From: Fasciola hepatica
Taxonomy: Eukaryota; Platyhelminthes; Trematoda; Plagiorchiida; Fasciolidae
Assembly (NCBI GenBank): GCA_948099385.1
Contig: CANUEZ040000180.1
Location: forward strand, 4,003,501 to 4,067,500
Direction: 5' to 3'
Length of the DNA: 64,000 bases
Below are positions 21,239 to 63,576 of the stretch, one piece after another (position 1 is the first letter of the stretch; every line of letters begins with the position of its first letter). The notes beneath the pieces were generated by a model. It searched no databases. It was not told the origin of the DNA and saw only the letters and a list, made by a program, of their open reading frames with translations. A program made the position numbers and the translations under genes.

Positions 21239-21350
21239 ATGTTGACGGGAAAAAGTTCAACGAGAAAAGAGATGCAGATCGTAATCGCCCTCGCGTTGTG
21301 TTTACTTCCCGTGATATTCCAGGAGGTGAAAAGTCGCTCTCTGTTATACG
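21239..21350 (+). CDS. signal-peptide exon 1 of micro-exon gene B
   Basis: An ATG at 21272, in frame with one at 21239, encodes MQIVIALALCLLPVIFQEVK and a short tail RSLLY plus the first base of a Gly codon, ending exactly at the donor GTAAGA (21351). The hydrophobic core (residues 3-16) is a clear secretory signal, with cleavage likely shortly after it. Starting at 21239 would add 11 polar residues; I prefer 21272 because the signal then begins at once. The exon ends in phase 1, the phase shared by the downstream micro-exons. This is the typical MEG first exon: signal peptide, then micro-exons. Function unknown; a secreted protein is predicted. Confidence 0.65.
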
Positions 21351-21531
21351 GTAAGACTGAATTGAAGGCTTTTTCAACAATTTCAACGACCTTCAAGTAA
21401 AACCCAATATCGTTTTGTTACAATTCAATCAACTGTCACCTGGGAAGCTGTTGAGGTTTAGGAACAACCCTACCTTGTCAATATTACTGAACTTTTTTGA
21501 TGACCTAATCCTAAATGGTTTTTGTTACAAG

Positions 21532-21546
21532 ATGAATATGCATGTC
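21532..21546 (+). CDS. 15-nt micro-exon candidate (EYAC), gene B
   Basis: GGTTTTTGTTACAAG precedes AT GAA TAT GCA TGT C, followed by GTATTT. It is symmetric and phase 1, ends in a Cys codon plus one base, and is the first candidate after the signal exon. The G left by exon 1 plus AT gives Asp. The donor is only moderate. Confidence 0.35.
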
Positions 21547-22572
21547 GTATTTAGGCTGTACTGATTTACGCATAGCACGTCAGATCGCAAACGTTTACAG
21601 CAACGTTCATATAAACCGACGGAGTATACAGAACAGTCATTAGAAATAAGAAAGGCGAGACTGAGTGAAAGAGATGATGTAAAACAGTGAGACCAGAATA
21701 AGAAAGTAGGACAAACACGATGTGCCACTTTTTCAAAGCAAAACTTGAACTCTCAAGCATAGTTTATTTTAAATCCCCCTGTGGCTACTAAGTTATTGTT
21801 TCTGGTTTTTTTCGAATATGCAAAACATTGCAGATGTACATGAAGTTACTAACCCTTGGACATTAAGCTCCCGAATATAGTCGTGTGACGGACCTAAATA
21901 GGCCCGAACTGCATCACATTGAATCCCCCACCCCTCCCTGCGGTGAGGCCCCCAAAACCTAACATAAGGACAAAAAGATCTTTTGTAAATCTGAGAAATT
22001 TCATGTGACAAAAGTCAAGGAAAATCGGTTTTAAGTGTATTCCCTCAAGTGCCTTGTTGTACTTTCCCAACTGAGAACGATTTTATTACTTGTGCGATGA
22101 TCATTGCCAAACATTCTGTTTTTGTTGCTGGTGTCTCTAAGACTGAGAGTTTTACTAAACTTACCCATGAACGTCATTAACGCAACTGCATATGGCTCCC
22201 GGATGCTCCTCAGGCCTACTGAAATAACCTGATGAATCACCTGCGGCGGCCAAATCCTCCAGAAATATGTGGAATTCGCAGTAGTACGGGAGTGGATTTT
22301 TTTGATAAATAATTCATTATACAGTACTAATGCTCAACTCAGCTCAGTGGTGGAAGAACTTTGGAAACACTGTGAAGGTACATACTCTGTCTCTTTAAAA
22401 ATCCTAAACAGAGTACACCAAACGAAACTTCACATGGACTACAATACAAGACGAACAGTTTCGAATAGAGCATCAAATTTCTAGGATATCCGGGCTGACC
22501 TTCAATAGTTTATGAACACGGATACTATATTATTCAGCCCTTAAAATGACTCATGGTCACTTCCATAGTGAC

Positions 22573-22880
22573 CAGTCTCTGCAGACTAGTAATAATGGAA
22601 TGCGTTCCTTGTACTTAAGCTCCTACAGAGACCTCATCCAACAAAGGAGTCGATCGCTGTTTGGGAAACGGGTTGTTACTCTTCAAACCCAGTGAGGAAA
22701 CGGTGCTATATCATGTAGTATATATTTTCAACGGATCTTTGAGAGTTATCTCGGATAGCCTTGTGGTTAGATGTTCGACCTAAATTCGTTCCTCACACGT
22801 TCGAGTCCAAATAGACCTTTAGCGGACGCATACTGCTGATGATTCCTAAGGAAGCAGATGAAACATCTGTTTCCTTCAGT
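22573..22880 (+). repeat. SINE-like repeat copy 2 with tRNA-like promoter
   Basis: Shares its 5' half with the copies at 19707 and 50660. The segment at about 22758-22812 has an A-box-like TAGCCTTGTGGTTAGA and a B-box-like ACGTTCGAGTCC, as in a tRNA-derived SINE. The downstream part (CTGATGATT..AAGGAAGCAGATGAAAC) matches the 50.9 kb copy. It lies in the intron after the gene B signal exon. Confidence 0.65.
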
Positions 22881-23249
22881 GTTGATTTGGGCACTAATAC
22901 TGCAAGATGACTCATATTCCGCCAAACTGCATGGGATTTTAAAAAATTCAAATTTACCTAGTGCAAAATTTACTTTGGAAAAAGTCGTGTGCCAGCTAGT
23001 GCAGTGGTGATTTCTAAAGCGACGAAGCAACAGCATTAGAATTGTTTCCAAACACAATCAGTTATTCAAGCTCTATGTTAGGAAACGAGCGGTAAATAAA
23101 AGTAGTCGCTATACTTGGAAAATTCCCACACATTTGAGTGACAGAAGCTCAAGGAAGCTCTCACCAGTGATGGACGTGAATAAACTCAACCGGAACTTCG
23201 TCAGAGACGGAGACACTACATAAGTCTCTAATTTTGAAGCTAACAGCCG

Positions 23250-25833: not shown

Positions 25834-25845
25834 GATCATACTACC
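25834..25845 (+). CDS. 12-nt micro-exon (SYY), gene B
   Basis: CATCTCTATTTTATTAAAAG precedes GA TCA TAC TAC C and a consensus GTAAGT. It is symmetric and phase 1, encodes Ser-Tyr-Tyr, and ends in a Tyr codon plus one base. G from the signal exon plus GA gives Gly, so the join is open. Confidence 0.6.
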
Positions 25846-28787: not shown

Positions 28788-28802
28788 GCTATCCACCCTA
28801 TG
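28788..28802 (+). CDS. 15-nt micro-exon (YPPY), gene B
   Basis: GCTGTCTCTTGTTGTGTCAG is a strong acceptor. The exon GC TAT CCA CCC TAT G is followed by GTGAGTAC. It is symmetric and phase 1, encoding Tyr-Pro-Pro-Tyr, and is one of the best-formed members. It belongs with the YSPY (32544) and PGPY (44305) exons. Confidence 0.68.
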
Positions 28803-30013: not shown

Positions 30014-30025
30014 GTGGTTGCTACT
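30014..30025 (+). CDS. 12-nt micro-exon (GCY), gene B
   Basis: TCCGATTCCTTTGTTTCAG, an excellent acceptor, precedes GT GGT TGC TAC T and GTAAGT. It is symmetric and phase 1, encoding Gly-Cys-Tyr. It is closely related in sequence to the exons at 33274 (GT TCA AGC TAC T) and 40919 (GT TGC TAT TAC T), as expected from exon duplication. Confidence 0.68.
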
Positions 30026-30785
30026 GTAAGTTATTCACTACCACTGTTAACGCGTACAGTTGTGCTTACTGTGCAACACATATTGTGCTGAACTTGGTTT
30101 CGCTAAGCAGCAATGGGTTGAGTTACATTTTGCCCTCGTGGCACCTCCAGGACACAAGGATGATTTGTCATACAGTGGAAAGGCCGCATTCATCAGGGGA
30201 GATTTATAAAAACCAGCCAAAACAGTTTTGTTCTTGTCATTATTCACAGCTCGTTTATATCTACGAGAAAGTAACGGTTATAAGGAGTTTCAATACACTT
30301 TTTTGCTACAATCCTACCCCTTTGTCAAGCCGATAGGATTCTCCTACTATATAGGCTAGGCTTCAAACCTACCTAGTGCCCTTCGAAGCAAGTAACACAG
30401 TGTTATGTCCGCATGGCGGGACAAAATTTTCCAGGGAGCCAATGATCGGTTCCGTGGCTGTTACCGCTGATCATTTTCGCGTACTCGGTACTCTATTATT
30501 TGCTCTTGCAGAATCCCTGTGGTTCGAATGAGAATAAAGTGACTACCAATGGGTTCATCAATGAAATGAAATGAAAAAGGAGAAATAAGACGAATTTCTT
30601 AGATTAAATGAATAACGTTCACTAAATAGCAATGCTATTCAGTTTTATGAGTTTAATTTCACCTTCGATGAACTTCAAATGTGATTATTTGGATTTATAT
30701 CAAAAGCTACCATCACACAATGAATTTCTAACCACCCGACTCTACTATCACCTTTCTCAACTCCTATCAAACGATTCCGCTTTAG

Positions 30786-30800
30786 ACCGACCATGTTGCC
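30786..30800 (+). CDS. 15-nt micro-exon (RPCC), gene B
   Basis: TCAAACGATTCCGCTTTAG precedes AC CGA CCA TGT TGC C and GTAAGTAC. It is symmetric and phase 1, encoding Arg-Pro-Cys-Cys. T from the 30014 exon plus AC gives Tyr. Skipping this exon would join T to GA of the next exon and create a TGA stop, so it may be obligatory when the 30014 exon is used. Confidence 0.62.
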
Positions 30801-31370
30801 GTAAGTACTCCTCTTTTTGGTTCCCAACAACATGTATATTTCTGAATATTATGAGAAGAAATTTCTAAAAAATAATCTCTTTATTATTGGCCTGTATTTC
30901 TAAAGAGTATGGCTGACTCAGCCTTTTTAAAGACACTTCCGCACACTTAACGACCTGTGCTTCGTTAACTGTAAACAAGACAGTGAGTCGTCTTGATAAA
31001 TGAGTTGCAAAACCATTGTATTTCTCAACATAGAGTTATATCAGAAGTTAACCTACGATTCTGATGATCAAACGAATCTGTGATGGTAGTCTCAAAGTGT
31101 GTTCATCTTTCTAAACAGGCAAATCTATAGTTGGCACAGACTTTCTTTGTCAAGGTGATAAATTATGCACAGAATCATGCGCTATTAAGGGAATAGTGAG
31201 AATTCAATAAGCCACGCAGAAGTTTCTTAACCAGAGCGTGTTTAAGTTCTCGTCGTCTTGGAACCACCTTATTATATGGCACATTTGCTTATCAAACCTA
31301 AATAAGTCGGTTCAATAATGTTAGTGGACCACCCCCACCCCAGTCACTCAGCTCCGAACCATGTGACCGT

Positions 31371-31404
31371 CACGACCTAGTCGTGCAGATCGACACGTCG
31401 ATCT
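31371..31404. repeat. two adjacent short perfect hairpins
   Basis: CACGAC-CTA-GTCGTG is followed one base later by AGATCGAC-AC-GTCGATCT. The arms are 6 and 8 bp. They lie in a locally C-rich patch within an intron and could be part of an unrecognised transposon end. Confidence 0.5.
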
Positions 31405-32543
31405 AACCCCAACCCGTCTCCCCCACAAACTACGTCCAATCCGAATGACCCTTGACCATTTCAGCACAACCATCTCCTATATGATTTGTAAAGACTTGAG
31501 AATGAATCATTGAAAACAATTGTTTTTCTCTGAAAACGTGTTCTGATGTCACAATGTGCATATTCCGGAATCTAAAGCATAACAAAGAACAATGATTCAC
31601 AGGGCGAGTACTAAACTCATACTACTGAATACGTCTCAGTTTTCAGTAGTGGGAAACTCACCAGTACAATAGTAAGGAAATGATTGAGTCGCGGGCGTCA
31701 ACCGCATAAAAACTCCACTACTGTGTCTCCCTGTCTTGGAGTCAGCGTGTCATTCTGATGCGGAGCTAGCAGTTTAGAACCAGCCAGGATGGAGTAATGT
31801 TAAGGGGTGTGTAGCTCACAACAACCTAAAGCCGATTCCCCTTCCAGACTTAGGACTTGGAAAAGTAGTCTGCAGAAGAGAATTCCATAAGTAGATGAAA
31901 ACCCCATTCCACGTTTTTTATTTGGATTTCAGATTCAATACACCCGAGTAAACCAGTTCATAACCAATTCAACTATTATGTTACTCAGATCATATCAGTT
32001 ACATAATAGTATCTAGTCGTATGACGGAAAAGCTCACACACGGTCAGCTTTCCAGCTTTCATGGGCTACCCTTCTCAGGGCGGATTTTCGTGTTATAAAC
32101 ATCTCGAGATAAAACTCGCATAGCAGTATCTTTTTTGTAAGGTTTATCGATCAAACTAAACCTACTTTTTGAATCTTGCGATGCGGGTATTTAGGTGAAA
32201 AAAAATTATTTCGCGTCTAAATCCATGAAGTTTTGTCTGATAATCGGAATTCTCGTTCAGAAGTGTTCCAGGAGGTTTGGCTTTTGTTGCTGACAGAAAT
32301 CACTGTGGAAGAATGTCGACAAGAATGACAACCGAATTGGAGTAGTTGTTACTTCTTGGAAGTTTCGTTTCATAAATTTAGGTGCCTTAACAGCATCATC
32401 AGTGTAACCGGGATTGTTCCTTTTTTCATATGTTGATAAATCCACAGAAATTTTTTTGACTTGAGTGAGGACTAAAAATCTTATCGACGAATTACACAAA
32501 CCAAATGAAAATCAAACGCACACCAAATATTTTTCAAATTCAG

Positions 32544-32558
32544 GATATTCACCTTATC
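32544..32558 (+). CDS. 15-nt micro-exon (YSPY), gene B
   Basis: ATATTTTTCAAATTCAG precedes GA TAT TCA CCT TAT C and GTGAGTGC. It is symmetric and phase 1, encoding Tyr-Ser-Pro-Tyr. It is nearly the same module as YPPY at 28788. Confidence 0.68.
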
Positions 32559-33273: not shown

Positions 33274-33285
33274 GTTCAAGCTACT
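33274..33285 (+). CDS. 12-nt micro-exon (SSY), gene B
   Basis: CTGCACCTTCGATTCAG precedes GT TCA AGC TAC T and GTGAGTTG. It is symmetric and phase 1, encoding Ser-Ser-Tyr, with the same start dinucleotide and end (TAC T) as the exons at 30014 and 40919. Confidence 0.65.
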
Positions 33286-34404
33286 GTGAGTTGACACTGA
33301 TTATTTAAATACCGAAATTTCATTCTCAATGGTTTGCTATCATATATAATGGAGCATGCTACTTCTGATTCAGCAATCCCAGAATGAATGAATGATCCCT
33401 TTTCCGCTTCATAGTCCCATTATATTTGGATTAGAAAAAGTACAGCCTAAAAAGGATACCACGCTTAGTTCACCACTGTGTATCTCAGGCAGCATTGGGC
33501 TGCTTCTGCATTCGACTGAAGTATTATCGATTGTGGCGCCTTTCGCACGGAAATCTGTCGTGAGTTATCGAAAATAGGTGGCACATAGATGAGTGAACTC
33601 TACCATACGGAAGCACACTACAGGCTCCATGGTAATTTCAACTCGTCAGGTAGGTAGGTGATGTTCCGCCCACTCTCAACCAATATATCGTGCCAAAGTT
33701 CTGATTTATTGCTTCCGGAGTGTAAATGTGCGCCTTTCTTTGGAGAATCCGGACTGACATCACAATGTTCAGCGATCGCCGGGAGCCGGAATATCCAGAA
33801 AATCAGTGGATTATAACAGTAATGCTTGTTTGCATAATAGCCGTCCTGTTTACATAAAGACAGTCGATATCCAAGCGGAGAAGGTAATCGTATGATTAGT
33901 AAACCTACGTCCGTCGTATGTCACTTGGCAGTCTGGCCTAATCGTGTTCTTTGTAAATCCACAATTGTGTGTTGAGCGATCAACCACTTACTTATTCGGT
34001 AAGTAGTACGTACGCTTCATCACAAAAGTAATTTGTGACTTATTCAAGGATAATGCATAAAACGATGATGTTTTAAGGGGTACATCATCAGATTCCGACT
34101 GATCAACTTAGCTACGACATTTTATGGCAGTCTGAAAATCCTGCTACTTATATTAAAATGCAAGTTCTTCAAAAATTGCTGGTGAATTAAACTGTTTCAG
34201 AATCATCACACAGGCTGATATGAATAAACTTTGTCCCAACCGTGGAACTTGTTGACACTGAGAGAAATACTGTTTTTTGATTCTGCAAATATAACTCACG
34301 ATTGCTTCGTCGAGCTCGCGATAGGAAACAAAGATCATCTAATGAAACTTCAGTCGTTCAGTTCTACTGTCACTTTGTTCATTTCCCATCACACGATCTC
34401 TCAG

Positions 34405-34422
34405 CAGATCGGCCATCGTTGT
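34405..34422 (+). CDS. 18/15-nt micro-exon with tandem acceptor (RPSL), gene B
   Basis: A long pyrimidine tract (CTTTGTTCATTTCCCATC and on to CTCTCAGCAG) offers two acceptors 3 bases apart. Exon CA GAT CGG CCA TCG TTG T (18 nt, from 34405) or AT CGG CCA TCG TTG T (15 nt, from 34408) ends at a consensus GTAAGTG. Both keep phase 1 and differ by one residue. It is one of two core modules not ending in Tyr or Cys. Confidence 0.58.
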
Positions 34423-38397: not shown

Positions 38398-38412
38398 ATC
38401 GATCAGCCTACG
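38398..38412 (+). CDS. 15-nt micro-exon (RSAY), gene B
   Basis: TTGTTCTATCATTCCGTAG precedes AT CGA TCA GCC TAC G and GTAAGCC. It is symmetric and phase 1, encoding Arg-Ser-Ala-Tyr, with the Tyr codon plus one base rule obeyed. Confidence 0.62.
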
Positions 38413-40918: not shown

Positions 40919-40930
40919 GTTGCTATTACT
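40919..40930 (+). CDS. 12-nt micro-exon (CYY), gene B
   Basis: A long pyrimidine-rich run (ATCCTGTGTATTCCATTTG) and GGAATCAG precede GT TGC TAT TAC T and GTGAGTTT. It is symmetric and phase 1, encoding Cys-Tyr-Tyr. Sister of the 30014 and 33274 exons. Confidence 0.66.
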
Positions 40931-44304: not shown

Positions 44305-44319
44305 ACCCAGGACCTTACA
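44305..44319 (+). CDS. 15-nt micro-exon (PGPY), gene B
   Basis: GAAATCTTTTGCGCAG precedes AC CCA GGA CCT TAC A and GTGAGTG. It is symmetric and phase 1, encoding Pro-Gly-Pro-Tyr. An internal CCAG six bases in could act as a second acceptor, giving a 9-nt symmetric exon (Pro-Tyr after the split codon). Confidence 0.66.
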
Positions 44320-45093: not shown

Positions 45094-48014
45094 GTGAGTA
45101 GCTGAAGTGGAGTTTGTGCCTGCAGTGATTTTCTGTCCAAGCTTACCATGAGAAGTTGTGTACGCTAGGTTTGCAAAGATCTCCTCTTTAATTTCACTTT
45201 GTCATGATCCTAGAGGCTGCCACTCTTCCATGTGGATATATTTGTGTTGGACTTTTTCCTGGTGGAAGTGTGTCGAAGCCTATCTATGCAGGTAGCTCCT
45301 CTTTTGAGTGAAGATTCATGTAAGTTTTAGGCTTTTCTGGACAGGATGAACAGATGCATAACAGTGTGTGGTATGCGTTTAACACCTCCAATTTGCAAGA
45401 TGCTGTTAAATGTCGGGGTTGGTCTAACACCAAAACGTTTGGTGTCTAAGGAGACCTTGAGGATAAATTATGTTATCCAAAGAGCTGAATATCGGATGAA
45501 GTGCCTTTAAACACAAATTGACAATTAGGGCTGTACTCCTTTTCTGGAAGATCAGTCCAATTAAATGCTCAGACTTTAGTCTGTTGTAAATAACAGTTAT
45601 AAAGAGAATGACCTAATAAGTGCATAGGCTGGCCGTAGGTAGTTTTTGGCCAACTAATTCTCATTGTTACCACTAGGTGCTAACTTATAGCAAGCCATTC
45701 AAAAAACGACACCGCTCAAGGGTTGACAAATTTGAGGGAGCTCACTTTTATCATACATTTGGCAACAACACTGAAATGAATAAGAACGCAATTTGCTAGC
45801 AAGTTATCAATGTAACACGTGCTAAATTGTGTTATAATATATGCAGCGTAAATAATACTAATACTTGTGGCCCATGAGTCAGCAACCAAAGCAAGGGAAG
45901 AAAGACATTTCCCAATATTTTCTTTCGTCCTGAGATAATTGATTCATTGATCTAATCAATACCGTTTTGCCACATGATAATGTCCAATAAAATCCTGGCG
46001 GGTTAAGCATGTTTTGAACTATCGAGTTAAGTCAAACCGACAATAAGTTCAGACAAATTGTCTTGCAGTAAACAATGTCACATTTTTTGTCAGAAATGTT
46101 TTGCGCACACTTGGACTGAGTCCATGAATAAAACAGTATTCGATAAATATTCGGCCTCTCTTCCGAGCAAATAGTTCGCTGATTCACTTACGAACTTATC
46201 ATCATAACGACATTCCAAATTATTCAGTCAGTTGTTAAGGCAACCAGTAATTTAACTTAGAATTTTGTTGACAGAGAATATCAGCGAATTTCCGACTACT
46301 TTTGATAAGGTAAAAAAAACCATCGAATTAGAGGGTGTGCCCGGCACAATATTCATCATTGTTATCTGATTAGTCCTAGAAATGTTTGCGTGCCTTGTGA
46401 AAAAACTATTCAAATAAGACAGCTTTTGTCTACAAGATTTTGGAGTAAAATCTGAACACTTCAGACAGCGGTCGCTTGTATTTGTTCGTTTCCATGGAAT
46501 TCTTAGTTGCTCGACTTTAGATCCAAATCGATATTATGTGGCACATTGTGAGGTAGTCATCTTTGTAAACCGGAAAAATCATTTCAACACGCAGTTTGCA
46601 CTGCCAAACTTAGTCATGCCATCTGTCATTTTTTTATTTCGTTATCTGAAGTCACACTATAGCGGCCCACAAAAAACTGTCTGTTGTTGGTGCAAAGTAA
46701 AGACGTGAAAAGCAACTGATTGTTTACCGAAGAGGTGGACACTTTCTGACCAAACACCAATGATTATAAACTACATTGCGAAAATACTGCGTTATTTCAT
46801 AACTTGTCAAAAATTATTATTTTTTACTTCCCAGCTGTCTCTGTTTCTCTTTAGTTTCGAAACCTTTCTTCGATACTGTTATAAAACAGTTTTTTTACAA
46901 GCTCACCTGATCCAGCAACTGTCCTTAGTCATTACCTGTTCAATTTCGTTATAGGTTGATCACCACGTTTAACTAACGGCCTCTTTAAAAAAATAGCAAC
47001 TTAAAAACAACTTCCAGCTTGTGCTTACGGCTAAACTTTCTTTAACTTTGCTACAGACAGTTCTGAAGCTCCGGTAACTAATACGAACAACAAGAAAGTG
47101 GAACAGGATTATTTTATTCTGCTTTTAATGGGTCAACGACAGATTGAATTTTAGACCCAGGTGGCACATGAAGTGCACTTTTGAAGTAGCCGCGAAAACC
47201 TGCTAAGGTCGATTCCGTCAACTTACTTTTCAAGGTCAGAACGCAAACAGCATTGTTCATCAGCTTTGTTGACAAATTTATTGGTAGTAAAGCTTGAATC
47301 TGGTCAAACACAAACCAAATTAGCAATCAGATCCCAGATGATAGACCTGTCCTGCTAATTACGGAAAGTTTATCCCGTAAGACGAATCATTTCACTCACC
47401 GTAGAATTCTTTTGAAAAACCTATCAAAGCACATTTGATAAATGTAAACGGTTGTTATCAGCCGATTCTACTAAGTCTTATAAGAACAACAATTAATAAC
47501 ATTCAGCTGTATTCCTCAGAAACTATAATTCAGTAATCCCCATCGTCATTTTCCCACGAAAAAGTGGTCTTCACTATTTCGTTTGGTAATAGCATCACTA
47601 TTGGCAAGGTCAACATCAATACTGCCACCGTGTGTCAATCACCATTTAACAGCATTGGTGGTAACTACCAGCTTTTCAACTTCCATGGAAACAGTGCTAA
47701 CAGCCGCCTGGTTCTCTTCAAAGTGACTCAGAATCATAGACACTCTCGTGCTTTCAGCCTCTTCAGTTTCCTCTGAACTTTTTTTATGAGAAATTTCTTA
47801 CAAATAGAAAAACAGATTGGGTTAGTTTGTTGGTTTCATCGTAAATGGCATTTATTCCTGAGAGTTTGGCTTGAAAAGATCTGTGGTTTTATCATGGCGA
47901 AAAACGGTGAAATTAGTCACTGGGTTATGAAACTCGTATAGCTTAAGACCTTTTTTCCATCTTTGAACGTCTCCCGAGATCTGATTTTACTGACTTCCAA
48001 ATCTTTCGGTACAG
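45094..48014. other. intron of gene B
   Basis: Short open frames only and no transposon domain recognised. A 6-nt GTAAGT-flanked string at 45314-45319 is too short to support. Confidence 0.4.
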
Positions 48015-48026
48015 GTCATTATCGTC
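48015..48026 (+). CDS. 12-nt micro-exon (HYR), gene B
   Basis: ACTTCCAAATCTTTCGGTACAG precedes GT CAT TAT CGT C and GTAAGTAA. It is symmetric and phase 1, encoding His-Tyr-Arg. Tyr is present but one codon earlier than in most modules. Confidence 0.55.
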
Positions 48027-49071: not shown

Positions 49072-49075
<4 letters not shown>

Positions 49076-49118: not shown

Positions 49119-49121
<3 letters not shown>

Positions 49122-50505: not shown

Positions 50506-50659
50506 ATTGAACTTTTACACTACATGATTTGACCCTCTTCCGACATAGTTGTACACTGCTTCCATGGTTTTCAGTGGTCTGCAAGTCCACTCTGCCTGAT
50601 GAATCATATTTTGCAAAGAACAATCTCCTTCTACTCATGCGCACATAGTAACCGAGCTT

Positions 50660-51490: not shown

Positions 51491-51505
51491 ATGAGGAAGA
51501 TTACC
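51491..51505 (+). CDS. 15-nt micro-exon (EEDY), gene B
   Basis: AGAGTCCTCCATTATTTTGCATAG, a strong acceptor, precedes AT GAG GAA GAT TAC C and GTAAGCGC. It is symmetric and phase 1, encoding Glu-Glu-Asp-Tyr. It keeps the Tyr rule while starting the acidic section of gene B. An AAG inside could give a 6-nt version, also in frame. Confidence 0.6.
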
Positions 51506-52151
51506 GTAAGCGCAAAGATAATTCCGTATATATGTGATCTTGCTTGAGTGCAATACTACTTTCATGTGATATTTACCTGAAATCCGATAATGATCAAATA
51601 TCCAACATGTTCACACCACGTGTAGATCATTTCGCTGACTTATCAAAGCGCGGCCTAAAGATCGTCACGTGCGCTTTGTTCAATAACTCCGTCGACTTTA
51701 AATTTCTAAGGAATTACTGTTATGGTGTTCTTCCATGGTCTTGATTGAACATAATTACCGAGTGCAGACAGTTCGACTCGCGATCGTGGTTGCGCACCCC
51801 CACATTCGCGAAGAGTAGTTAACCATTGATTGAAATATCATTATGTTTATTCGCCACGTACCAGCGCACAGGCAATCTTGAATAACGATATGTGTATGAG
51901 TATGCGCAGAAGCAGACCCACGTGATTTGCCTGCTCACTGGTGCTTCGGTGGTTTTTCACATTAAATTGCCTACTAATGAGTAATTAGGTAATATTGCAA
52001 ATTTCAACTTACATCGGGTGTGCCGAACACCCAAGTGCACGCTTGCAGTGATGAGTCACTAATCCATAAGCTCTGGTTGATTCATGTGGAACCGCCTCGG
52101 GCATCGCCTGCCACTTGATACGGGCAAATAGAATTATTCAACTAACGCGTT

Positions 52152-52165
52152 CCCCCCCCCCCCCC
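52152..52165. repeat. C homopolymer
   Basis: A run of 14 C, intronic. Confidence 0.9.
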
Positions 52166-52482
52166 ACACTATGTCACACAGCGACGAAGAATACTGGGGA
52201 CATAATTGATCGCTTACGTCAGCTCTGATTTGAGAGTCCAAAACGGTTCATGTTTACCCTGTACCTACCACTCCCCTGAAATTATTTTACGACCACACAC
52301 CAACATTCAAACAATCATACAACGAGAACTATCTTATTATCGAGTAATCCAAACTCACGGCATTATCTATTGCTAAGTTCGCAATCGGTGACGAAAAGTC
52401 TTGGGAGAAAAGGTTGTCTCTCACAGTGTTTAACTTCCAAGTTTTCCATCTAAGTTAATTACGGAGGGCCTTCGTCCGGCAG

Positions 52483-52491
52483 CTGTTGAAC
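52483..52491 (+). CDS. 9-nt micro-exon candidate (VE)
   Basis: GGGCCTTCGTCCGGCAG precedes CT GTT GAA C and GTGAGTCG. It is symmetric and phase 1, with a Glu in line with the acidic section. Nine bases are too few for more confidence. Confidence 0.28.
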
Positions 52492-53303
52492 GTGAGTCGT
52501 GATGAACTTTAACCCATTGTGTTACCAGCCTTACCCGCAGGTCATTCACCAACTGGCTGCCTATATTTGGCCGCAACCCACTTCCTATAGCTAAGGAATA
52601 GATTGAAAAGATTTGACATGGATTTCAGTAATTTATTTATCAGTCACTGGTGATATACAAGTACTCTTTGGCGTTTTATCTCATAGTTTCTACCATAATC
52701 TCAGTGAATAGTCCCCAACACATTTCGTTCCGTCTCGTGCCGGGTATCTATAGTGTTAGCACATTCTACTCACCTTGTTCATCTGGTTTCATAAGAATAT
52801 TTGGAAGTTTTACTCTCATTGTATTTACTGTATCGAAAGTGGATTTATGATAGTTCTCACAGGTAAAACCCAAATTGTATGTTCATTTCCTTATGGAAAG
52901 TGTTTTCTCGAAATAAACTTGGAAATACCTGGAGAGGGCGTGAATCTTCCACTGGAGACTGTTCACTTAGAAAGGCAATTTTTTGGGTAGGTAGTTCTTT
53001 GCTCTTCTGGATGTGCTGTTTCAGAAAACAAAAGCTGGTTCAATTACCAGTAAAATATATCCTTGACCAGTAAATTTGATAGCGCACAACACACAGAAAA
53101 CAGGTCTGATAGTGTTTGTGTGCTTGGATGAACTCTTTGCCTACCGGTCTGAGGTTAAATTTAGGCTCAGATAATTTAGAAAGAAATCAATCTCACTTCT
53201 CTTCAGTTATTTTCATCATTACATGGTTACCTTGCGAAAGAAACTCAGAAGGCAACTTGGTAAAAACGCTTCAATAGACCTCTATTTATTGATTAGCTTC
53301 CAG

Positions 53304-53326
53304 ATATGAAGAGGAGGATGAAGATG
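53304..53326 (+). CDS. acidic exon candidate with ambiguous acceptor, gene B
   Basis: TTATTGATTAGCTTCCAG precedes 23 bases rich in GAA/GAG/GAT, then a consensus GTAAGTG. Using the CAG at 53303 the length is 23 nt, so phase is not preserved: phase-2 entry reads YEEEDED and leaves in phase 1, while phase-1 entry reads MKRRMKM and leaves in phase 0. Using the AAG at 53311 gives a symmetric 15-nt phase-1 exon AG GAG GAT GAA GAT G (EDED). The acidic readings fit the neighbouring EEDY and EEYEPE exons; I favour EDED. Confidence 0.42.
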
Positions 53327-56300
53327 GTAAGTGACAGTGTCCAAAAAAGCTGAAATTCGGCAAACGTTTAAAGAGGACAGTTCATATTCACTGAACCATT
53401 TCTTGACAAATGTGCTCATGAACAGTGGTTATTCTCAAAGGACTCTGCATAATGGTTTGTTCGAAAAAGAAATTTGCAGTTTCCACGGTTTCCTGACTGC
53501 TGAAATTGAGGACGTCGGTCTCAAACGTCACGTCATCAGCAAAGGTGATATCCTCGTCTACACAGAGCCGGAGTTTACTTGACTGGTTACGCAATGTCTG
53601 AGACCTAAACGTCAAACGTGGTCATCATGAGACACATGAAACGTCTTTATTCCTGCATGCTTCTTCACACAACGACACACAAAAGACACAAACTAGATGC
53701 ACGCTCATGTATATCCATCGAATATAAATGCTTCAGGAGACACCATATGCTTCGCCCTAATAGCCAGAAAAACAGAAGAGATCAACTTCATGGGTATTAG
53801 CAGAAAATACAAAACATAAACCAAACCCTCAGTTTTATTTTGCCATGGGTGCGCTTAACTGCACATGAAATCTCATAGCCCACATGACCCGACAGACTTA
53901 CTGCAGTATCAAGAAAACCCGATACTAGCTAGTCAGATTGGAAGTGATGAGTAACATACGTTGCTCATAAATCAGTCATGATGACAAGCTAGGCAACAAC
54001 GAATTCCTGTGCATCGTTTGTTCCGGCCACCGTTTGCTGCGATCAAGTCCTCTACGTAATGGAAACTGCTTTCACCCGACCATTGCTGACAAACATCGCA
54101 CAGTCGTGTTGGTTCGTGCGGCTCAGAAACATTGATAGTATATGGAATATTAAGTGGTACATGAAACAGACACGTAATAATCACCTCAAGATGAAAACGG
54201 CATTCCTGGTTATCTTGATGGTGTTGCAGCAAGCAGACGGCATACAATTCTGAAGTGCTTCCTATTAGATTGAGCACAATTCAACCGACCTGTTGGGAAA
54301 GTTTCATTTTGAGAAAGTATGGCATAAAATACCCCAACAACATCCTTCTTACTTGGAAACCACCGTTTGTAAACAATAGCACTCCTCTGAAGCAGAGCAG
54401 AACCAGAGTTAATCCGAAGTAATAATTACAACTTGGTAACATACATTAGTAGTGATGCATTTTGTTAAGTTAGGTTTGACTTTCTCACCTGCTAACCTCC
54501 TGCATAACTGCCATGGTTTCTAATCCTAACCCGCGACATTTCCTGCCCGGCCAAAGCCACCAGTGATAGCCTGCATATTACTACGCGATTATATGGACTG
54601 CTCATCTGGACCGAGATTATAATCCTCACTGGTCTCATTGTGCAGTGTAGAATGGGGAACTGTATTTAGAGACATGAAAAACCACAATTTACCCAGTTCA
54701 GCCCGCTAGAAAAAGGTGCTTTATTGAAAGACTGGTCTAAACCAGAAGACCTTGTTCGAATTTAAGGCAAACCCATGGTAATATAGTGTCATTCAGACAA
54801 CCCAACTACAGATTGCTGTTGCTGAAACGTCTGGAATTATGGATGAGTCCAACTAACAACGTCGGTGGTTGTTCGTAGCCAGTAGTATACCGACCATTCT
54901 AATTCATTTGCTGAGTAGAAAGTTGATCCTAATGACTGAATAGCAACTGTGTGTTCAAAAAATTACCATGACGGTGAGGTTTTGATGAATGCTCCCATAT
55001 CTACTAAAGCTACTTAGACATGTGGTGTGAATGCACACTAACCTTGATGACGCGTCGCAGTGGATAACATCCCTTAGGAGTGGCTTGGTCTTATTCTACG
55101 GTGATCAGCTCACTTGTTTCGTGCTCCCAACAGCGACACATTTTTGACCCTTTTCCGAAACATTCACTAATCTAAATCTCTCCCAATCAGGTATTTTAGA
55201 AAGTGCTTTCTCATCAATCCCTACATTACTGATAACGAAAGTGCTCACCATTGTTCGTTTTCGACGTTAAAACAATGTTCTACCAGGAAGCTCCGTTTGC
55301 GCATCTGTTTATGCGTACCCATCAAAACGTGTATGAAACAGTTATGGTTTGTGATGATTTCACTCCTTAAATCAGATCAGATTCTTGAATGAATGACACA
55401 TTAATTACTAGGTGAAACCCAACCGATATCAGTATGATGCCAGTCAAACCCGATAAAACAATATCCAATTAGTTTCCTCAACCGCAAACATGATCACACG
55501 GTTGCCTGTCTTTCACGACATATAATTAGTGATATTTTCATTCAACATTTCGTAAGTATAGTTATTAAAACGGTTGCATGAAACTTGTGCTACTGACGCT
55601 AACCTTCTGTTTCATAGAATCATCCACGGCTAAATATTGTGCAAAAAATGCTATTATACCCACCCTGTATTTTACGATCAACGAACCAATCAGGGTGATC
55701 AAGTTTGGCCCGTTGATATGTCAACCTACTACTTTACACGTATATGCATGAGAAGTTTAGGAGTGAAGGATTTGAAGTGATTTGTCTCCGCACAAATTGC
55801 CCGCGAGGCTGTAAAACGCTTTTAAACCCTGGTCCAAAAGTATGGCGAAAATATTAAACTGGTTTACTAAGGAAATGACCTTAGTCCCTGGTTATTCATT
55901 TTGGTAATCATGAATGGTGTTCGCATCACATGGGATTCGTAATAGAATAATACACGTCATACATTCTGATAAGAAGTAGACACCTCTAACTTATCAGAAA
56001 GCAGGGAACGCGAGACGTCTAATGCTCCCTGAGCTAGAACAAAGATTTATACTCGCACGCGAAGATTCGAAGCTAAGCATACGCCGCATTTTCAAAAGCA
56101 CTTCCGGATTGATTACAGTTAGTCACTATTTTTGAGGGACTATAGTTGCTCTCTCATTACCGAAACACATCATAATTGGGGGAAAATCTCAAACAAGCCC
56201 CAATAAGATTCTTCCACAGTTCTTTAAATCAGCCTACGGGGGCTTCGAACCTACAGAGGTCCTTGCAAATGAATGAAAGCATTCTGCTTGTATAGTAACT

Positions 56301-57400
56301 CTTTCAGCCAGCACCACATCAAAAGTGCCAAAATAAGAGATTGGTATCTTGAATAACTGATCGTCATTTGCAAAATCGAAGGGAAAGGACCATAAATCAC
56401 ATGACTTTTATACTGAGTGAAATAACGGGGCAGTCATTTATAGAATAAGTTTAATTAAGACCACCCTGATTTATTCACATACTACTGAATCTTAGTCCTC
56501 CTGCCCTCGGAGCGTCTCTATGAAGGACTGTGGTGCGGCTTTTTGTAGAAACGGGCTGCCCTGTACATCCAAAAATGAATGAATCTTTGATCCTGATGAT
56601 TCCGAAAACTTAAACTACTATCATGATATCTCAGTACAACGACGTGACCATTCACATGGTCAACCTCATCAGAAAACGTTTTTTGCGCCAAAAAATCGAG
56701 TCCATGGAGTGGTCCGCTCACAGTTCAGACGAAAACAGCTGTGAATGTTCAGGATCTGAGAGCGAGGCTAGTTTATGAGGATTTTAGGAGTCCTTGGTAC
56801 TTTGCATGAGTTGGCTATCTCCATCTTCGATGAATGGAGCTGCACTGAAATTGAGACCATCCAGAATACAATCGGATGCACAACTGGACTTCATTCATCA
56901 GTCAGTAACAATAAAGGTCACTGTCACTGGCTGCTTATTTCTGACATATATTCTGGGGTGGATTCAATAGCATTTTCGCTCTCTTAGGCACGTTTCTGAG
57001 GATAAATCAGTGTACCTCTTTTAATCCTAAAATCCTGGTGCGTAGTTTAAGCAATAGCCATCTCACATATCAACTGCCAAATCTGGTCAACTTGGGTAGT
57101 TTGATTCAATGTTAATCACAGAAAATCAGAGCTAGAGCACCTTACAAATGAATTTGACTGAGGAGTACTGTTCTCTTCATGATCGTTGGGCAAAAGGATC
57201 TACAGTAAATAACTTGCTGCTACCTAATTTTCCACTAGTTGGTAGATTATGGTTCTCCTACAGATTTTGATGACAATCATTCATGAAACCGAAACAAAAG
57301 TGAATCCAATAAAATCACACAGAACTTCGACTTCAAAGCTAACATGGGTAGCTGACGAAACCAAAGCAATATAATTGGTAGAAACTGACCTTTAACCGGA
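53327..57400. other. last large intron of gene B or intergenic DNA
   Basis: No splice-flanked exon was found. A short signal-peptide-like ORF at 54191 is listed separately. Other open frames are short and lack domains. Confidence 0.4.
54191..54253 (+). CDS. signal-peptide-like mini-ORF (MKTAFLVILMVLQQADG)
   Basis: An ATG opens 20 codons beginning MKTAFLVILMVLQQADG and stops at TGA 54251-54253. The n-region and hydrophobic core look like a secretory leader. No good donor lies inside it (the GTs are phase 0 and non-consensus; a GTGCTT lies just after the stop), so its use as a first exon is doubtful. It could be a relic of another MEG first exon, or chance. Confidence 0.22.
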   Translation: MKTAFLVILMVLQQADGIQF

Positions 57401-57553
57401 GTGACTGACCAGTCGACGAACCGACTGGCTGACTGATTGACTGATTGATTGACTGGCCAACTGACGGACTGCCTGACTTACTGACTTATAGAAGTGGATG
57501 ACCGACTCGTCGACTGACTGACTGAATGAATGAATGACCGAATGAATGAATGC
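57401..57553. repeat. tetranucleotide-type simple repeat (GACT/GATT, GAAT)
   Basis: Degenerate TGAC/TGAT units pass into GAATGAATGAAT. It lies just beyond the 3' end of the - strand LINE at 57.8 kb. RTE-type elements end in short tandem repeats, so it may be the element's tail. Its - strand translation (Ser/Gln-rich) is meaningless. Confidence 0.75.
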
Positions 57554-57822
57554 ATATATGTCCAACTGACTGAGCAAATCACACTTCCGTTTACTCACCC
57601 ATGCACTCATTGATTTTGTTAGCCCATCATACTCATCGTACAGCGTTAAACAGTAGAGCAAGCCCTACTAACCACTGCCTTTTTCACCATCTTGCACGTT
57701 GAATTAGAAAGTACGAATATACAATATGGACAGGGAGTGGACCTACACGGGCTGGAAAAGGAAAGAATGACCTAGTAGCCAACACACGGTATACACAGTC
57801 TAACTGTACAAACGCACATCGA

Positions 57823-58515
57823 TCAATCATTCTGGTTCCATAGAAAGTGACAACACGATCGCCACTGTTCACGGTTCGCTGCCATATCCTTCACTGTCTC
57901 CAGCCAACTGGTTGACGGACCTTTTGGACCCCAACCACGAAAACGTGAAGCGTTTACTTTTCCCAAGTCTGCTGTACATTTTCTCATTCCTCGCTGCCAC
58001 GTCATCTGTTGACCTCCACGTGGTCTCTTCCACCCCTTAGGAGGAACGGAGAATAGGACACGGTACGGTAGACATGTGTTTGCCATACGTAACACACGCT
58101 CCAACCAACGAAGTCTACTAAGTTGGATACGCTGTGAAAAAATGTTCTCCGAATTAGTACACAATACTCGCTTTCTGACCTCATCATTACTTACTCGGCT
58201 ATTCCACCCGATCTTAGCGATACTACACAAACATCGGTGGTCGAGAGCCTCAAGATGACGAATATCTTCAGCACACAAACTCCAAGTCTCGCAACCATAC
58301 AACAAAACTGAACGCACTGCAGCACAGTATACACGGCCTTTCAACTTCAGTGAAATATCAGATTGACGCCACAAGTGCTTCAGTTCAGTGTACGCTCCTT
58401 GAGCCTTGGATATCCACGTGCTCACCTCTACTACTGTGCTCCCATCCGTCGTCACGTTGCTACCGAGGTAGGTGAAGTGGTCGACAACTGACAGCACCTC
58501 CCCATAGAGCATCAA
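57823..58515 (-). pseudogene. LINE C-terminal region
   Basis: A 230-codon open block reads DHFTYLGSNVTTDGS, LLYGCETWSLCAEDIRHLEA and HRCLCSIAKIGW, then SRLRWLERVLRM and a W/G/R-rich tail ending HFLWNQND. This is the conserved post-RT region of trematode RTE-like elements. It is the longest intact frame in the window and ends at a stop near 57823. Confidence 0.85.
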
Positions 58516-58533
58516 GCTTGGAACCGTTGACGT

Positions 58534-59777
58534 TCAGTCTTGTAACATCACTTTACACTTTGAAGGTGCAAAGCGCATGCCGAATGGAGCTACAGCTCTC
58601 CCAAGTCTACCTAGTGCATGTTGAGCATGTTCCGTGGATTCGAACAAGCAGACAACGTCGTCTGCGTAATCTAGGTCACATAGCTTTCCACTATTTCCTG
58701 GTTCGACGCCTACATCCTGAAGATTTAGCAACGCACTCTCCATTATTTCGTCCATGATGAAATCGAACAGGAATGGAGACATAGAACATCCCTGTCGAAC
58801 ACCGCTGGTCGTTTCGAACTGACCGGATAGTTCATCGTAAACTCTAACGCGGCCAGAAGCATGAGAATACAATGATCTCAGTAGGTTCACAAACTGCTGG
58901 GGCACACCTTTTCGATGAAGAACACTGAAAGGGCGCTGTTCGACCAACTGAATCGAAGGCGCCTTTCAGGTCTAAAAAAAACCCTATTGTCGGTCGGTGG
59001 TGCGTGTGACGCGTTTCAAGTAGTCAGCGAAGAGTAAAAATCTTGTCGATGCATTCTCGACCTGGGCGGAATCCAGCCTGCTGTTCGCGGACATTCCTCT
59101 CGCGAGCCGGTGTAAGACGGTGCGGCAGAATCGAGGCTAATACTTTGATGACTATCGGAATTAGGCTAATCCCACGATGATTACTACAGTCTTTGCGTTT
59201 TCCCTTCTTCAAGATGGGAACAACCAACGACTCGCTCCTTGTTAACGGAATGTGCTCCTCGTTCCAAATGTCACGGTGCAACACGGTAAGTGATTTTATC
59301 AACGCCTCACCACCCAGTTTTGAAAAGAACTGGGGGAAGTTCGTCGGGACCTGCCGCTCTCCCCCGCCTTAGTAATCGAATACATGACTCTACTTCTACC
59401 TCCGATGGAGGCTCAAGTGATACCACCCAAAGAGTCTCAGTTGTTGACACGGGAGTAACTACACTAGTGTGCGGCCAGCTAAACTGTTCTTTGAAGTATT
59501 CGGCCCACCGGTCAAGCCTTTGCTGTTTGCTATTGATGGGTTCTCCATTTCTATCGCAAATCGTTTCAATGACCTGAATGCGCCTTCCGCCGGTGTCACG
59601 AATAAGTTTGAACAGTCTCTGACTATTATTTGAAGTAGCTGCTATTTCCATTTCTTCGGCTACCTTGACCCACCAATCTTCGCTTTCATTCTGAGGGCTT
59701 TGTGAAACTTGCCTTTGCAGCTTTCTCCGCATCTTATTCATCTCCTTACGGTTCGAGAGCTGAGGCTTTTGTTCCAT
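58534..59777 (-). pseudogene. LINE reverse-transcriptase region (broken frame)
   Basis: The block at 59777-59307 carries the linker and RCAAGPDELPPVLFKTGW-like RT entry. The block at 59302-59024 has SNHRGISLIPIVIKVLASIL and EQQAGFRPGRECIDKIFTLR. RT motif A (DLKGAFDSV) lies at about 58960-58990 in a different frame after a T-rich run. The block at 58947-58534 has GVRQGCSMSPFLF and an intact YADD box at 58657-58668. Catalytic residues are visible but frames change at least twice, so no active RT is expected. Confidence 0.85.
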
Positions 59778-60104
59778 TATACTCAGCGACTCTTGCGAGA
59801 TCCAGTGTCATTGATGGTCATCAGATCTAGGACCACAGGCAAAACCTGCTGCAAAGTGCATCGCCTGTTTGATATGAGATCAATGCTCATCTACATTATT
59901 GTTCATCGTAGATCCTAGCACATGTGCTAACTTCTGCTCGTAAATGGTGCGTACTCCTGGATCACACAAACGTTGCACGGCTAATCCGGTTTGCGGTTTG
60001 CGACGATGACCATAAAGCTGGAGAGATAATCGCAATAAAACTAATGCATGATCCGTTTCTACGTACGTGGACCAGTAAGATCTGCAGTTCTGAACAGAAC
60101 TCCG

Positions 60105-60974
60105 TCACCGGTAGCTTACAGCGATATGATCAATCTGGATTAGAGTAACTGAAGAGTTAGAGCGCCATGTTGCTGTGCGATGCGAGCTGTGTCGGAAGTT
60201 GGTGCTAGACAAGAACAATCGATTGTCTGCACAAAAATGGAGAAGTCTATCCCCGTTATCTGTACTCTCAGTGGGTAGAGCATAACGACCACCTAAACAG
60301 GCTTCTGGCACACTGAGTTTGCCAACTTGTGCATTGAAGTCACCAACTAGCGCTACAATGTCAGAACCTTTACTGCTGCCAACGAGGGTGGCGAGTGCAT
60401 CATAGAACTCATCTTTCTGCAAGTCTGAGCTGAAGTCTGTTGGGGCGTACGCCGAGCTCACAAACAAATTGCGCTTAACACAACTATCCTTTCGAATGCC
60501 AACTGGCCCTTGGAGTCTCACAGCACATAAACGACTGTTAACAGGGATTCAGTCTAAAAGGGCAGCCTCAGCCTTGTCAGTCAAGACTATTTCTACACAT
60601 AGTTGACCCGTTGCTCGAGCTATTTCGTCTCCTGAGGTGCGCAGAAAATATCTCGACGAGATACCAGGAGCAGTTAGTTGAATTACACTGCCCAAATCCT
60701 GTATACGCGTTTCACTGAGGCAGCAGACATCAATCTTCAGAGAATCTAGTGTGAGGGCTACGCACGCTTGCTGACCGGCCTACGTGAGTGTACGCACGTT
60801 GATGGAGCCGAGATTCAGAGGCCGACGAGGTCTGAGAAAGCGTGAGTTATCAGACAGAGGATTATTCCCGACACTATTTGACAAAGGATCGTTGCGAGTA
60901 TCGACCGTGTTATCAGTGGGAACATTATGGGTGGATAGATGGGGCAAAGAGGGATGGTTAGGGACAGAAGACAA
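60105..60974 (-). pseudogene. LINE endonuclease region (broken frame)
   Basis: The N-terminal block ends with LNLGSINVRTLT, the usual start of the AP-endonuclease fold. The block at 60521-60105 has SSAYAPTDFSSDLQKDEFYD, then ALVGDFNAQVG (the conserved GDFN box with catalytic Asp and Asn) and finally QIDHIAVSYR (the DH active-site pair). The stretch between, 60522-60779, is readable only with a frame change. It would nick target DNA in an active element; this copy is interrupted. Confidence 0.8.
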
Positions 60975-61279
60975 AGGTTGAATAAAAGAGAGGGAACTCT
61001 GAGCAGTAGCCTACTTATCACTACCCACCCCGCTCGATGCAATGGGCAGCGCGGTCCTGATTATCCTGCGCGACGACCGATGCAGTATGGAATTCGTTCT
61101 ATTCGTACAGTTCTCGGGCCACAAAGTTTAAAATGTTCAGAAACGCAACCTACGTACCCGAGGCTTTTATAAATATTTACTTATGGTATGAAAATCTGGC
61201 TCGGGTCCTCGAAAAAGAGTGTCAGATACACTAGTTTGAGAACACCTAAAATCTAACTTCTATTTTTGTCACTCTTCAG

Positions 61280-61300
61280 AAGAGGAATACGAACCAGAAG
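61280..61300 (+). CDS. 21-nt micro-exon (EEYEPE), gene B
   Basis: CTTCTATTTTTGTCACTCTTCAG, a very strong acceptor, precedes AA GAG GAA TAC GAA CCA GAA G and GTAATC. It is symmetric and phase 1, encoding Glu-Glu-Tyr-Glu-Pro-Glu. It continues the acidic section and lies just upstream (on +) of the LINE's 5' end. The donor lacks the +5 G, but GAAG/GTAAT is acceptable. A phase-0 reading (KRNTNQK) is open but less in keeping with the neighbours. Confidence 0.55.
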
Positions 61301-63040
61301 GTAATCATGCATTATCCTTTTGCTAACGCCCTTGTTGTTTTGGTTCTTCACTAGAGAAAATGGATGTATTCAGATTTCTGTTTTTTCCAATTTCACTACT
61401 TGGTTACTGTATGCGAAAGGTTTACAGAAAGACGGAATTACGTCTACTGTATCACACGCTTGATTGATTTTTCAAAAGATCAAGAGAGGACCGAATTTGT
61501 CCATCCAAAATTCTATCAGACATAAAGACACACAGGCTACATGCACCCAGTTATCTTCACTCACGTGTGCGATCAAAAGCGTTGTCTTGAACATTCTTAC
61601 AATCACTTATCTCCAAATACTTGCTGTGGCGCTGGCTATTTAGCAGCAGTAAGCAGTTGGGGAAAGAACTAGCTGAAATATAAATCACAGAGCCATAGTT
61701 AAACAAAAAGCAGATGTAGAAATTGAGGCCTCCACACAACGGCTTTGAGAAATATTTATCAGTCAAGATTACAGATTGTTATCTATCAAAAATAGATCGG
61801 TCAGAATGACCAACACTTCTATCACGATCAAATGCAGATTTTAAGTTCTCGTTCACCGGCCTACTTCCTATGTATTTTGTTAATCGAAAAATGATTGTCA
61901 TGGACACGTGCGATACTTAGCAATATGAGTCAGTTTTTTGGAGATTTGATCGAACAATTTGCAACCCTTTGCGAGCTACACTTGTTCACGTCCAGCCCGA
62001 ACAGAAATCCATCTCGGTTGTTCAGCAATCATTTCTTTCTTCGTTCATCAACCCCGGATTCTGGAGCACAAGGTTTGACCCTCGTGGCAGTGGGTTAGAC
62101 TCGACGTCTAGGGGAAACTTGTTATTGCCTCGTTCCTTTCCAGTGCCCCGCTGGTCAGAGCTTCATTTTATCCGTCGCTCTGCTTCGCAAGATAGGGCAT
62201 TTTGTTTATCTTACAATTACATTCAAACCGTGCGGATATGGAATAGACCAACACCATTGCACCAGTGCGCAAGCGTGAAGTAGATAAGCTTGCACTCACC
62301 GCAATACCAAAGTCATTCCTAAGGGTAGGATTAGCATCAAGTCAGAAAATCAAATATCCAGTTAAGTGGATTATCATTGCATACAATGTTTTAAGGAGAT
62401 GAAATCTGAAAAAATGACTCCACCGATAAACCTCTCATCTGCAGCAGTCATCTCAATAACCCACTAAAAACCCTCTATTTAAAAGTTTCTCGAATCCTCT
62501 TTCCTTTCTCTAATGCAAAGTTCGCATGATCAAAAACCTTTTATGAAAAATAAAAAGCACTACTTTATCAATTATCTCGAATACACACTAAAATAGCTTA
62601 ACTTTGAGAATAATTATTTTTCACTCCTAAACATTCCTTTTTTTACGGAAAACACTAAAGACGTTGGTAAGCTTCAGTGACGGAATAACTGTTCATGTGG
62701 TTTCGTTTTGAGGTTTTGTCGACAATGGGTAATACCGAAGATGATTCTGAGAAAAGTATTGTCGCAGTCTATTGGGGTCAACTATTTCAAAACAAAGTGG
62801 TAGATACTGACCACAGACCATGAGACAAAAACCACCCGGGTCACGAAGATAAATGGAGTAAAGAAGCCAAACTGCTTTGTTTTTTCAAGAGCAACTTTTT
62901 AGTTGATCAGTAGGGGAGACACCAACGGTGTTCAATGGTAACGGTTTCAAATAAACCACATGGGACAACCGGAAAGTGTTCGCCTTTCGTTTCAATTAGG
63001 TAAACGTGGTTCAACAACCGGAATCAAAAATTTCCTTTAG
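61301..63040. other. probable last intron of gene B
   Basis: Only a 6-nt GTAAGC-flanked string (62661-62666) and short open frames. No domain recognised. Confidence 0.35.
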
Positions 63041-63262
63041 GAAGTGGAACGTTTGCGTGAGACGTCATTCACCATAAAAAGTAATCGGTACAACAACGAA
63101 CACATTTTTGTTCAATTTAAATTGAAGTCTGAACAGGCTCAAGTGGGAAGGAATTTACGTAGAGATCATCAGCCCAAGTATACAGCTTCGAAACTGCATG
63201 GAGCGGAGTCTTCTTCAGTCGGAGTGAACTCTCTGGGCGCTGAAAGCTCAAAACATAACTGA
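63041..63262 (+). CDS. candidate terminal exon of gene B (first option)
   Basis: AAAAATTTCCTTTAG is a good acceptor. Entered in phase 1 the exon reads SGTFA and stops at TGA 63058-63060, a very short end with about 330 bases of 3' UTR to the AATAAA at 63388. Entered in phase 0 it is open for 73 codons (starting EVERLRETSF, Arg/Lys/Ser-rich) to TGA 63260-63262. Phase 1 matches the micro-exon train; phase 0 would need the 53.3 kb exon to be used as a 23-nt phase switch. Confidence 0.4.
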   Translation, partial: EVERLRETSFTIKSNRYNNEHIFVQFKLKSEQAQVGRNLRRDHQPKYTASKLHGAESSSVGVNSLGAESSKHN

Positions 63263-63387
63263 ATTAACCGATCATGGTTGTCACTTCGCCGGGGTTACTT
63301 GTAGTTTCAAAGCTCACAACTCAAAGATGAAAAATTGCCACTTTTTGTTTTACCTTCATCCAGAAAAATTGCGTGACCTATTTGATC

Positions 63388-63393
63388 AATAAA
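63388..63393 (+). terminator. AATAAA polyadenylation signal
   Basis: A canonical hexamer (in GATCAATAAACTCC) about 130 bases after the longer stop and 330 after the shorter one. It supports a transcript ending here and hence the 63041 terminal exon. AATAAA is common in AT-rich DNA, so this is supportive only. Confidence 0.4.
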
Positions 63394-63559
63394 CTCCCCG
63401 GGAATGTTTACCATCTAGTTTTGCACGGCTTTTTTCAGCAACTGATAATAAACCTTCCACTTCGAAAATGTGACGGAAGCGTCAGCCAGTTAAACCAATT
63501 AGACTGTTGTCGAAATGAAGCTGCGCAATTTTAGGTTAGTAATTTTCTCTTCAATTTAG

Positions 63560-63576
63560 AGGATTATTCAGCGTGA
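63560..63576 (+). CDS. candidate terminal exon of gene B (second option, EDYSA stop)
   Basis: AATTTTCTCTTCAATTTAG, a very strong acceptor, precedes AG GAT TAT TCA GCG TGA. After the G of the 61280 exon it reads Glu-Asp-Tyr-Ser-Ala-stop in phase 1, in keeping with the acidic, Tyr-containing end. No AATAAA follows closely. It competes with the 63041 exon; both could be used alternatively. Confidence 0.35.

Follow-up and report, generated by a model that had tools for sequence, protein, structure and literature searches.

A predicted micro-exon gene in a same-strand cluster of such genes in Fasciola hepatica

RESULTS

Gene B, a candidate micro-exon gene of about 42 kb

A 64,000-nt stretch of the Fasciola hepatica genome (contig C180:4003501–4067500; hereafter the window, in whose numbering all positions are given) very probably holds a protein-coding micro-exon gene (MEG) of this fasciolid fluke. 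The gene would run from 21239 to 61326 or 63576 as the middle one of three or more genes clustered in tandem. We call the gene in 21239–63576 gene B, its upstream neighbour gene A and its downstream neighbour gene C; genome searches covered 1,499,821,164 bases in 656 contigs. Sixteen exons are predicted for gene B (a signal exon, 14 internal candidates and a possible terminal exon) over a span of ~42 kb, with introns of 0.7–8 kb, the first of 4.5 kb. All 14 internal candidates lie on the + strand, measure 12–30 nt, are multiples of three and stand in phase 1. The original prediction, made from the letters alone, proposed at least twelve segments of 12–18 nt, on one strand and in one phase, over about 30 kb. 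Number, strand, phase and divisibility by three stand; the length range and the span were set too narrow.

Exon 1 (21239..21350, + strand) carries the start codon and a predicted signal peptide and, as had been proposed, ends in phase 1, at a GTAAGA donor. A rule based on hydropathy, used in place of a trained predictor, finds the hydrophobic core MQIVIALALCL, which would place a putative signal peptide in the 5' exon, as in known MEGs; a second in-frame ATG lies at 21272. The coding part of this exon is 112 nt (untranslated regions fall outside this figure), to be set beside the two long flanking exons of a typical MEG. By DNA and by peptide alike, the signal exon has a single match in the 1.5-Gb genome, namely itself. 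None of the 15 adjacent exon joins creates a stop codon, which bears out the earlier claim of stop-free joins; no internal exon contains one, and 13 of the 14 single-exon skips are free of stops.

Segments bracketed by splice sites were counted in 21351–63559 under a strict rule ([CT]AG, a pyrimidine tract, 12 or 15 nt, GTRAG). The rule returns 11 segments on the + strand versus 2 on the – strand. Second-order shuffles give far fewer (400 shuffles: mean 2.1, maximum 6; an earlier set of 300: mean 1.9, maximum 6). A Tyr codon occurs in phase 1 in 9 of the 11 + strand segments and in phase 0 or 2 in none (shuffles: mean 0.25, maximum 3).

A splice-site matrix was trained on 23 micro-exons of genes A and C only, not on gene B, and the rank of a gene B exon is its place by splice score among 1186 + strand candidate segments. 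Gene B exons take ranks 1–6, and 9 of the 14 internal exons score above all 1309 minus-strand segments. The five that fall below the best minus-strand segments begin at 51491 (rank 13), 40919 (rank 16), 25834 (rank 21), 38398 (rank 24) and 61280 (rank 43). Genome-wide, 7 matches (control 0) were found for the pattern of an xxPCC micro-exon flanked by its two splice sites, and five of them are predicted exons of the cluster: one in gene B and four in gene C, two of the latter being duplicate copies. No micro-exon run was found in the 3 kb examined at the two xxPCC loci outside the cluster. The pattern for 12-nt exons has 6 genome matches, 3 in gene B (30014, 33274 and 40919) and 3 elsewhere (control 3); since both patterns were derived from these exons, the exons' own matches arise by construction and only the rarity elsewhere is informative.

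That gene B is a set of splice-like motifs aligned by chance seems hardly credible. Strict-rule segments do arise by chance about 2 times in 42 kb, and 4 lie on the + strand in the window's left part (1738, 2777, 10677 and 11428), of which the first two are assigned to gene A and the last two are taken as chance. A chance origin is contradicted by the strand counts, the phase-specific Tyr codons, the cross-trained ranks and the genome-wide scarcity of the exon classes. Strand bias, phase coherence, Tyr coherence, the cross-trained splice scores and the presence of like genes on both sides support the micro-exon gene that the original prediction had proposed.

Several results, besides the circularity of the two patterns, are weaker or weigh against this interpretation. 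Segments of 9–30 nt divisible by three number 17 on the + strand (shuffles: mean 7.8, maximum 16), a weaker contrast than under the strict rule; the – strand of 21351–63559 has 7 of them, and in the window's left part the figures are 12 (+ strand) and 4 (– strand). At 6–36 nt, with the pyrimidine rule dropped and the whole window covered, multiples of three are in excess on both strands to almost the same degree, with 24 of 42 segments on the + strand and 19 of 38 on the – strand. The 23 training exons had been chosen by a similar splice rule, and three exons (25834, 38398 and 61280) have weak splice scores. A stop codon appears in 9 of the 120 ordered exon joins of gene B and in 1 of the 14 single skips. 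A protein search with the X-padded signal exon, the only part of the product that was searched, yielded no candidate protein sharing three 5-residue words with it. Where gene B ends, at 61326 or 63576, is ambiguous.

The three weak splice sites, and a long interspersed nuclear element (LINE) inserted in a 7953-nt intron, could also be read as signs that gene B is decayed or silent, its modules being relics of which some are no longer spliced. We consider decay quite unlikely, given that 15 joins and 14 internal exons are clear of stops and that most exons have strong sites; introns commonly carry insertions.

The 3' end of gene B

The donor at 61300 (GTAATC) scores –3.5, compared with at least 4.6 in the core set. 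Reading through it meets a stop at 61324–61326 after 8 further codons, and an AATAAA follows at 62549. Given the poor donor and the read-through stop, the exon at 61280 may be the last, with 63560–63576 alternative or false. Gene B would then remain a micro-exon gene, ending at the 61280 exon, and 63560 would mark either an acceptor arisen by chance or a last exon used alternatively; we put this variant at slightly less than an even chance. Against it, the acceptor of 63560 is a fair one (rank 7 of 156 AGs in 61300–64000) and in phase, and the short peptide behind it retains the acidic, Tyr-containing character of the exons before. From 63576 to 64000 neither AATAAA nor ATTAAA was found; the next AATAAA, at 64784, lies past exon 1 of gene C.

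Micro-exons and predicted product of gene B

The borders named in the original prediction at 25834, 28788, 30014 and 61280 are genuine segments between AG and GT. Most exons have strong splice sites; 25834, 38398 and 61280 are weak by score, and the GTAATC donor of 61280 is poor. By eye, the central exons fall into three types: 12 nt, 15 nt encoding RPxx, and 15 nt encoding YxPY. Four of the five 12-nt exons end in Tyr, namely 25834..25845 (SYY; weak acceptor aaaag; rank 21), 30014..30025 (GCY; rank 1), 33274..33285 (SSY; rank 9) and 40919..40930 (CYY; rank 16), the last three being those matched by the genome pattern; the fifth is 48015..48026 (HYR; rank 3). The 15-nt exons are 28788..28802 (YPPY; rank 10), 30786..30800 (RPCC, a near twin of the QPCC and KPCC exons of gene C; rank 6), 32544..32558 (YSPY; rank 2), 34408..34422 (RPSL), 38398..38412 (RSAY; weak donor GTAAGCC; rank 24) and 44305..44319 (PGPY). 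At 34408 a tandem acceptor CAGCAG makes a start at 34405 possible (18 nt, DRPSL; ranks 4 and 14 for 34408 and 34405), and use of an inner acceptor at 44311 would shorten the 44305 exon to 9 nt (ranks 8 and 7 for 44305 and 44311). Such acceptor pairs could yield variants differing by one or two residues. Three acidic exons follow, 51491..51505 (15 nt, EEDY; rank 13), 53297..53326 (30 nt, SRYEEEDED; rank 5) and 61280..61300 (21 nt, EEYEPE; rank 43; alternatively the terminal exon), and then the possible terminal exon 63560..63576, with a phase-1 acceptor and DYSA before the stop TGA. All lie on the + strand. An extra 27-nt exon at 46521..46547 (+ strand, PNRYYVAH) fits in composition and was set aside as unsupported by its splice score (rank 59 of 1186).

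The order 12-nt, RPxx, then YxPY or RSAY occurs twice (30014–32558 and 33274–38412), which may reflect an old cassette duplication like the one seen fresh in gene C. Self-comparison found no intron likeness around the exons of gene B, and an intron-wide duplication inside the gene was rejected on that ground.

Within exons, the 39 residues of 25834–48015 include 13 Tyr, 7 Pro, 6 Ser, 4 Cys and 4 Arg but no Asp or Glu, and among the 23 residues of 51491–63576 are 10 Glu, 4 Asp and 4 Tyr. The Tyr- and Cys-rich product of the original prediction thus describes the central exons and does not extend to the last ones, which are acidic with one Tyr in each module. Exon 1 would supply the start and the signal peptide, after which the 14 phase-1 modules of 12–30 nt would be spliced in. 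Since every module is a multiple of three and all share a single phase, most could be skipped without a frame shift, and skipping would produce a set of short secreted proteins that differ slightly from one another. The gene B protein would be short, probably disordered, secreted and Tyr-rich, with an acidic tail. Acidic surroundings are typical of sulfated tyrosines. On general sequence rules and composition, we speculate that the tyrosines of the acidic tail are possibly sulfated and could bind basic host proteins, and, equally speculatively, that the Tyr/Cys part may stick or cross-link. Among the matches listed, no paper had fluke tyrosine sulfation as its subject by title.

Neighbouring genes and a recent cassette duplication

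About 70 kb on each side of the window was scanned, and the exons of genes A and C were hand-picked from these scans. On the predicted exons, gene B is the middle one of at least three micro-exon genes that share strand and phase over ~104 kb, a cluster not part of the original prediction. Gene A begins with a signal-peptide exon at –10717 to –10639 (+ strand); phase-1 exons follow, several with Pro-Cys, and reach at least 2788. Its tail micro-exons, from the splice-rule scan, are 1735/1738–1749 (APSR/PSR) and 2777–2788 (TGC), both on the + strand. Exon 1 of gene C (63695..63821, + strand) likewise encodes a predicted signal peptide, with a phase-1 end at GTACGT. The micro-exons of gene C run from 69563 to at least 93002 and include QPCC, EPSC and KPCC. 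Beyond about –11 to 93 kb, the strict rule gives two 12- or 15-nt segments on the + strand, one of them open in phase 1.

Gene C contains a duplication of 2614 bp (73210–75823 and 79231–81842, 96.25% identity). Both copies hold the same three micro-exons, one with a single changed base. Of the last 12 bases of exon 30786 in gene B, 11 are shared with exon 73910 of gene C; random 12-mers compared with seven gene C exons reach at least 10 agreements in about 3 of 10,000 trials. For the other 11 gene B exons compared with gene C, the best matches are 4–7, the chance level. The near-identical gene C cassette would represent micro-exon gain caught soon after the event, and makes the growth of such genes directly testable across Fasciola strains.

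Genes A, B and C share strand and phase, only 118 bases separate the putative gene B stop (63576) from exon 1 of gene C (63695), and the interval from that stop to 64000 lacks a polyadenylation hexamer, as noted above. These features would suit a single, very large transcription unit that starts from any of several alternative first exons. We think a single unit unlikely: there are three separate signal-peptide exons, gene B has two candidate stop-bearing ends, and tandem clusters of MEGs are described for schistosomes and a tapeworm (PMC4350168, PMC7653826).

The open reading frames (ORFs) of the window were rejected as host genes. Ten of them were scanned; one has a match above the Pfam cut-off (RVT_1, from the LINE) and four have sub-threshold matches. 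Flank ORFs longer than 110 aa resemble, by eye only, transposons or noise. The Rfam search gave 0 matches.

Comparison with known micro-exon systems

A MEG is defined structurally by at least 7 exons, of which micro-exons (<70 nt, divisible by three) make up half or more, with at least 4 of these in a run (PMC7653826). The gene B prediction has 16 exons, of which 14 are internal and 12–30 nt long and form one run. By predicted gene structure gene B is a MEG, under this definition and by the descriptions in PMC4671649 and PMC10526429. MEGs of S. mansoni have 10 to 20 very short exons (PMC10526429), and MEG-8.2 has 17 exons, 15 of them micro-exons (PMC12998952). With ~16 exons gene B falls in the usual range and is not exceptional in exon number, contrary to the initial expectation of a notable member by size and number of modules.

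Gene B resembles the Schistosoma MEGs (families MEG-1 to MEG-32) in its signal-peptide 5' exon, mostly symmetric micro-exons of <36 nt and small protein, as well as in tandem clustering and retrotransposons nearby (PMC10526429, PMC4350168, PMC4671649, PMC12998952). It differs in that its host is a fasciolid fluke and all of its exons keep one phase, whereas the last exon of MEG-8/9 has phase 2 at its 5' end (PMC5825161). At 4.5 kb its first intron is long; in S. mansoni, introns reportedly become shorter toward both ends (PMC10526429). No sequence similarity to a known schistosome MEG protein was seen, by the signal-exon search alone, the micro-exons being too short to search. The tapeworm Hymenolepis microstoma has 52 MEGs, including a tandem family of ten (PMC7653826). 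These share the structural definition and tandem duplication with gene B, but have a shared start motif unlike the three signal exons of genes A, B and C, as judged by eye without alignment.

Aphid bicycle genes also have many micro-exons, nearly all of their internal exons begin at codon position 2, like those of gene B, and they encode a signal sequence and a Cys/Tyr motif and evolve fast (PMC9168663). They differ from gene B in belonging to an insect family and in the saposin-like folds reported for their proteins; the gene B host belongs to Fasciolidae, not to the insects. The letters CYC were not found by eye in the gene B exon peptides, a look that covers neither junction residues nor the spacing of the real motif. 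We take the likeness to be convergent.

MEGs have been described in schistosomes and tapeworms (PMC4413821, PMC7653826), and among the matches listed no title reports MEGs in a liver fluke or in Fasciola. As far as these searches show, both the sequence family of gene B and the fluke family in which it occurs are new for MEGs. Its unusual features are the lineage of its host, the use of one phase throughout, a Tyr-rich make-up split by charge, and the fresh duplication of a cassette next to it; its size is ordinary for a MEG. It is doubtful, though conceivable, that these genes form a fasciolid-specific one-phase MEG family, growing by three-micro-exon cassettes, of an origin apart from schistosome MEGs, and encoding splice-variable secreted proteins whose Tyr-sulfated acidic tail docks on basic host proteins. 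For flukes, a fasciolid cluster would mean a wider spread of the micro-exon architecture, which standard gene finders probably overlook there.

Repeats and other observations

The LINE in gene B is a decayed copy on the – strand (57826..60548), which we take to belong to the RTE clade. It lies in the longest intron, between 53326 and 61280 (7953 nt), and one of its ORFs carries the RVT_1 match above the Pfam cut-off. It has 111 protein matches, and nearly all of the species-named ones are from flukes (Schistosoma, Fasciola, Heterobilharzia, Trichobilharzia). In COX1, the assembly shares 95% identity with Fasciola gigantica, 85% with Fasciolopsis buski and 68–69% with the Schistosoma sequences among the 120 matches listed, which puts the worm in Fasciolidae and not among the schistosomes. 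Imperfect palindromes occupy 14111–14458, 42230–42373 and 50330–50988, the last being related to 22549–22870 and 19683–19882; they are perhaps small inverted-repeat transposons. Elsewhere in the assembly, COX1 is repeated many times at ~14–15 kb steps on small contigs (C429, C468, C471 and others), as if these were mitochondrial concatemers from long reads or assembly.

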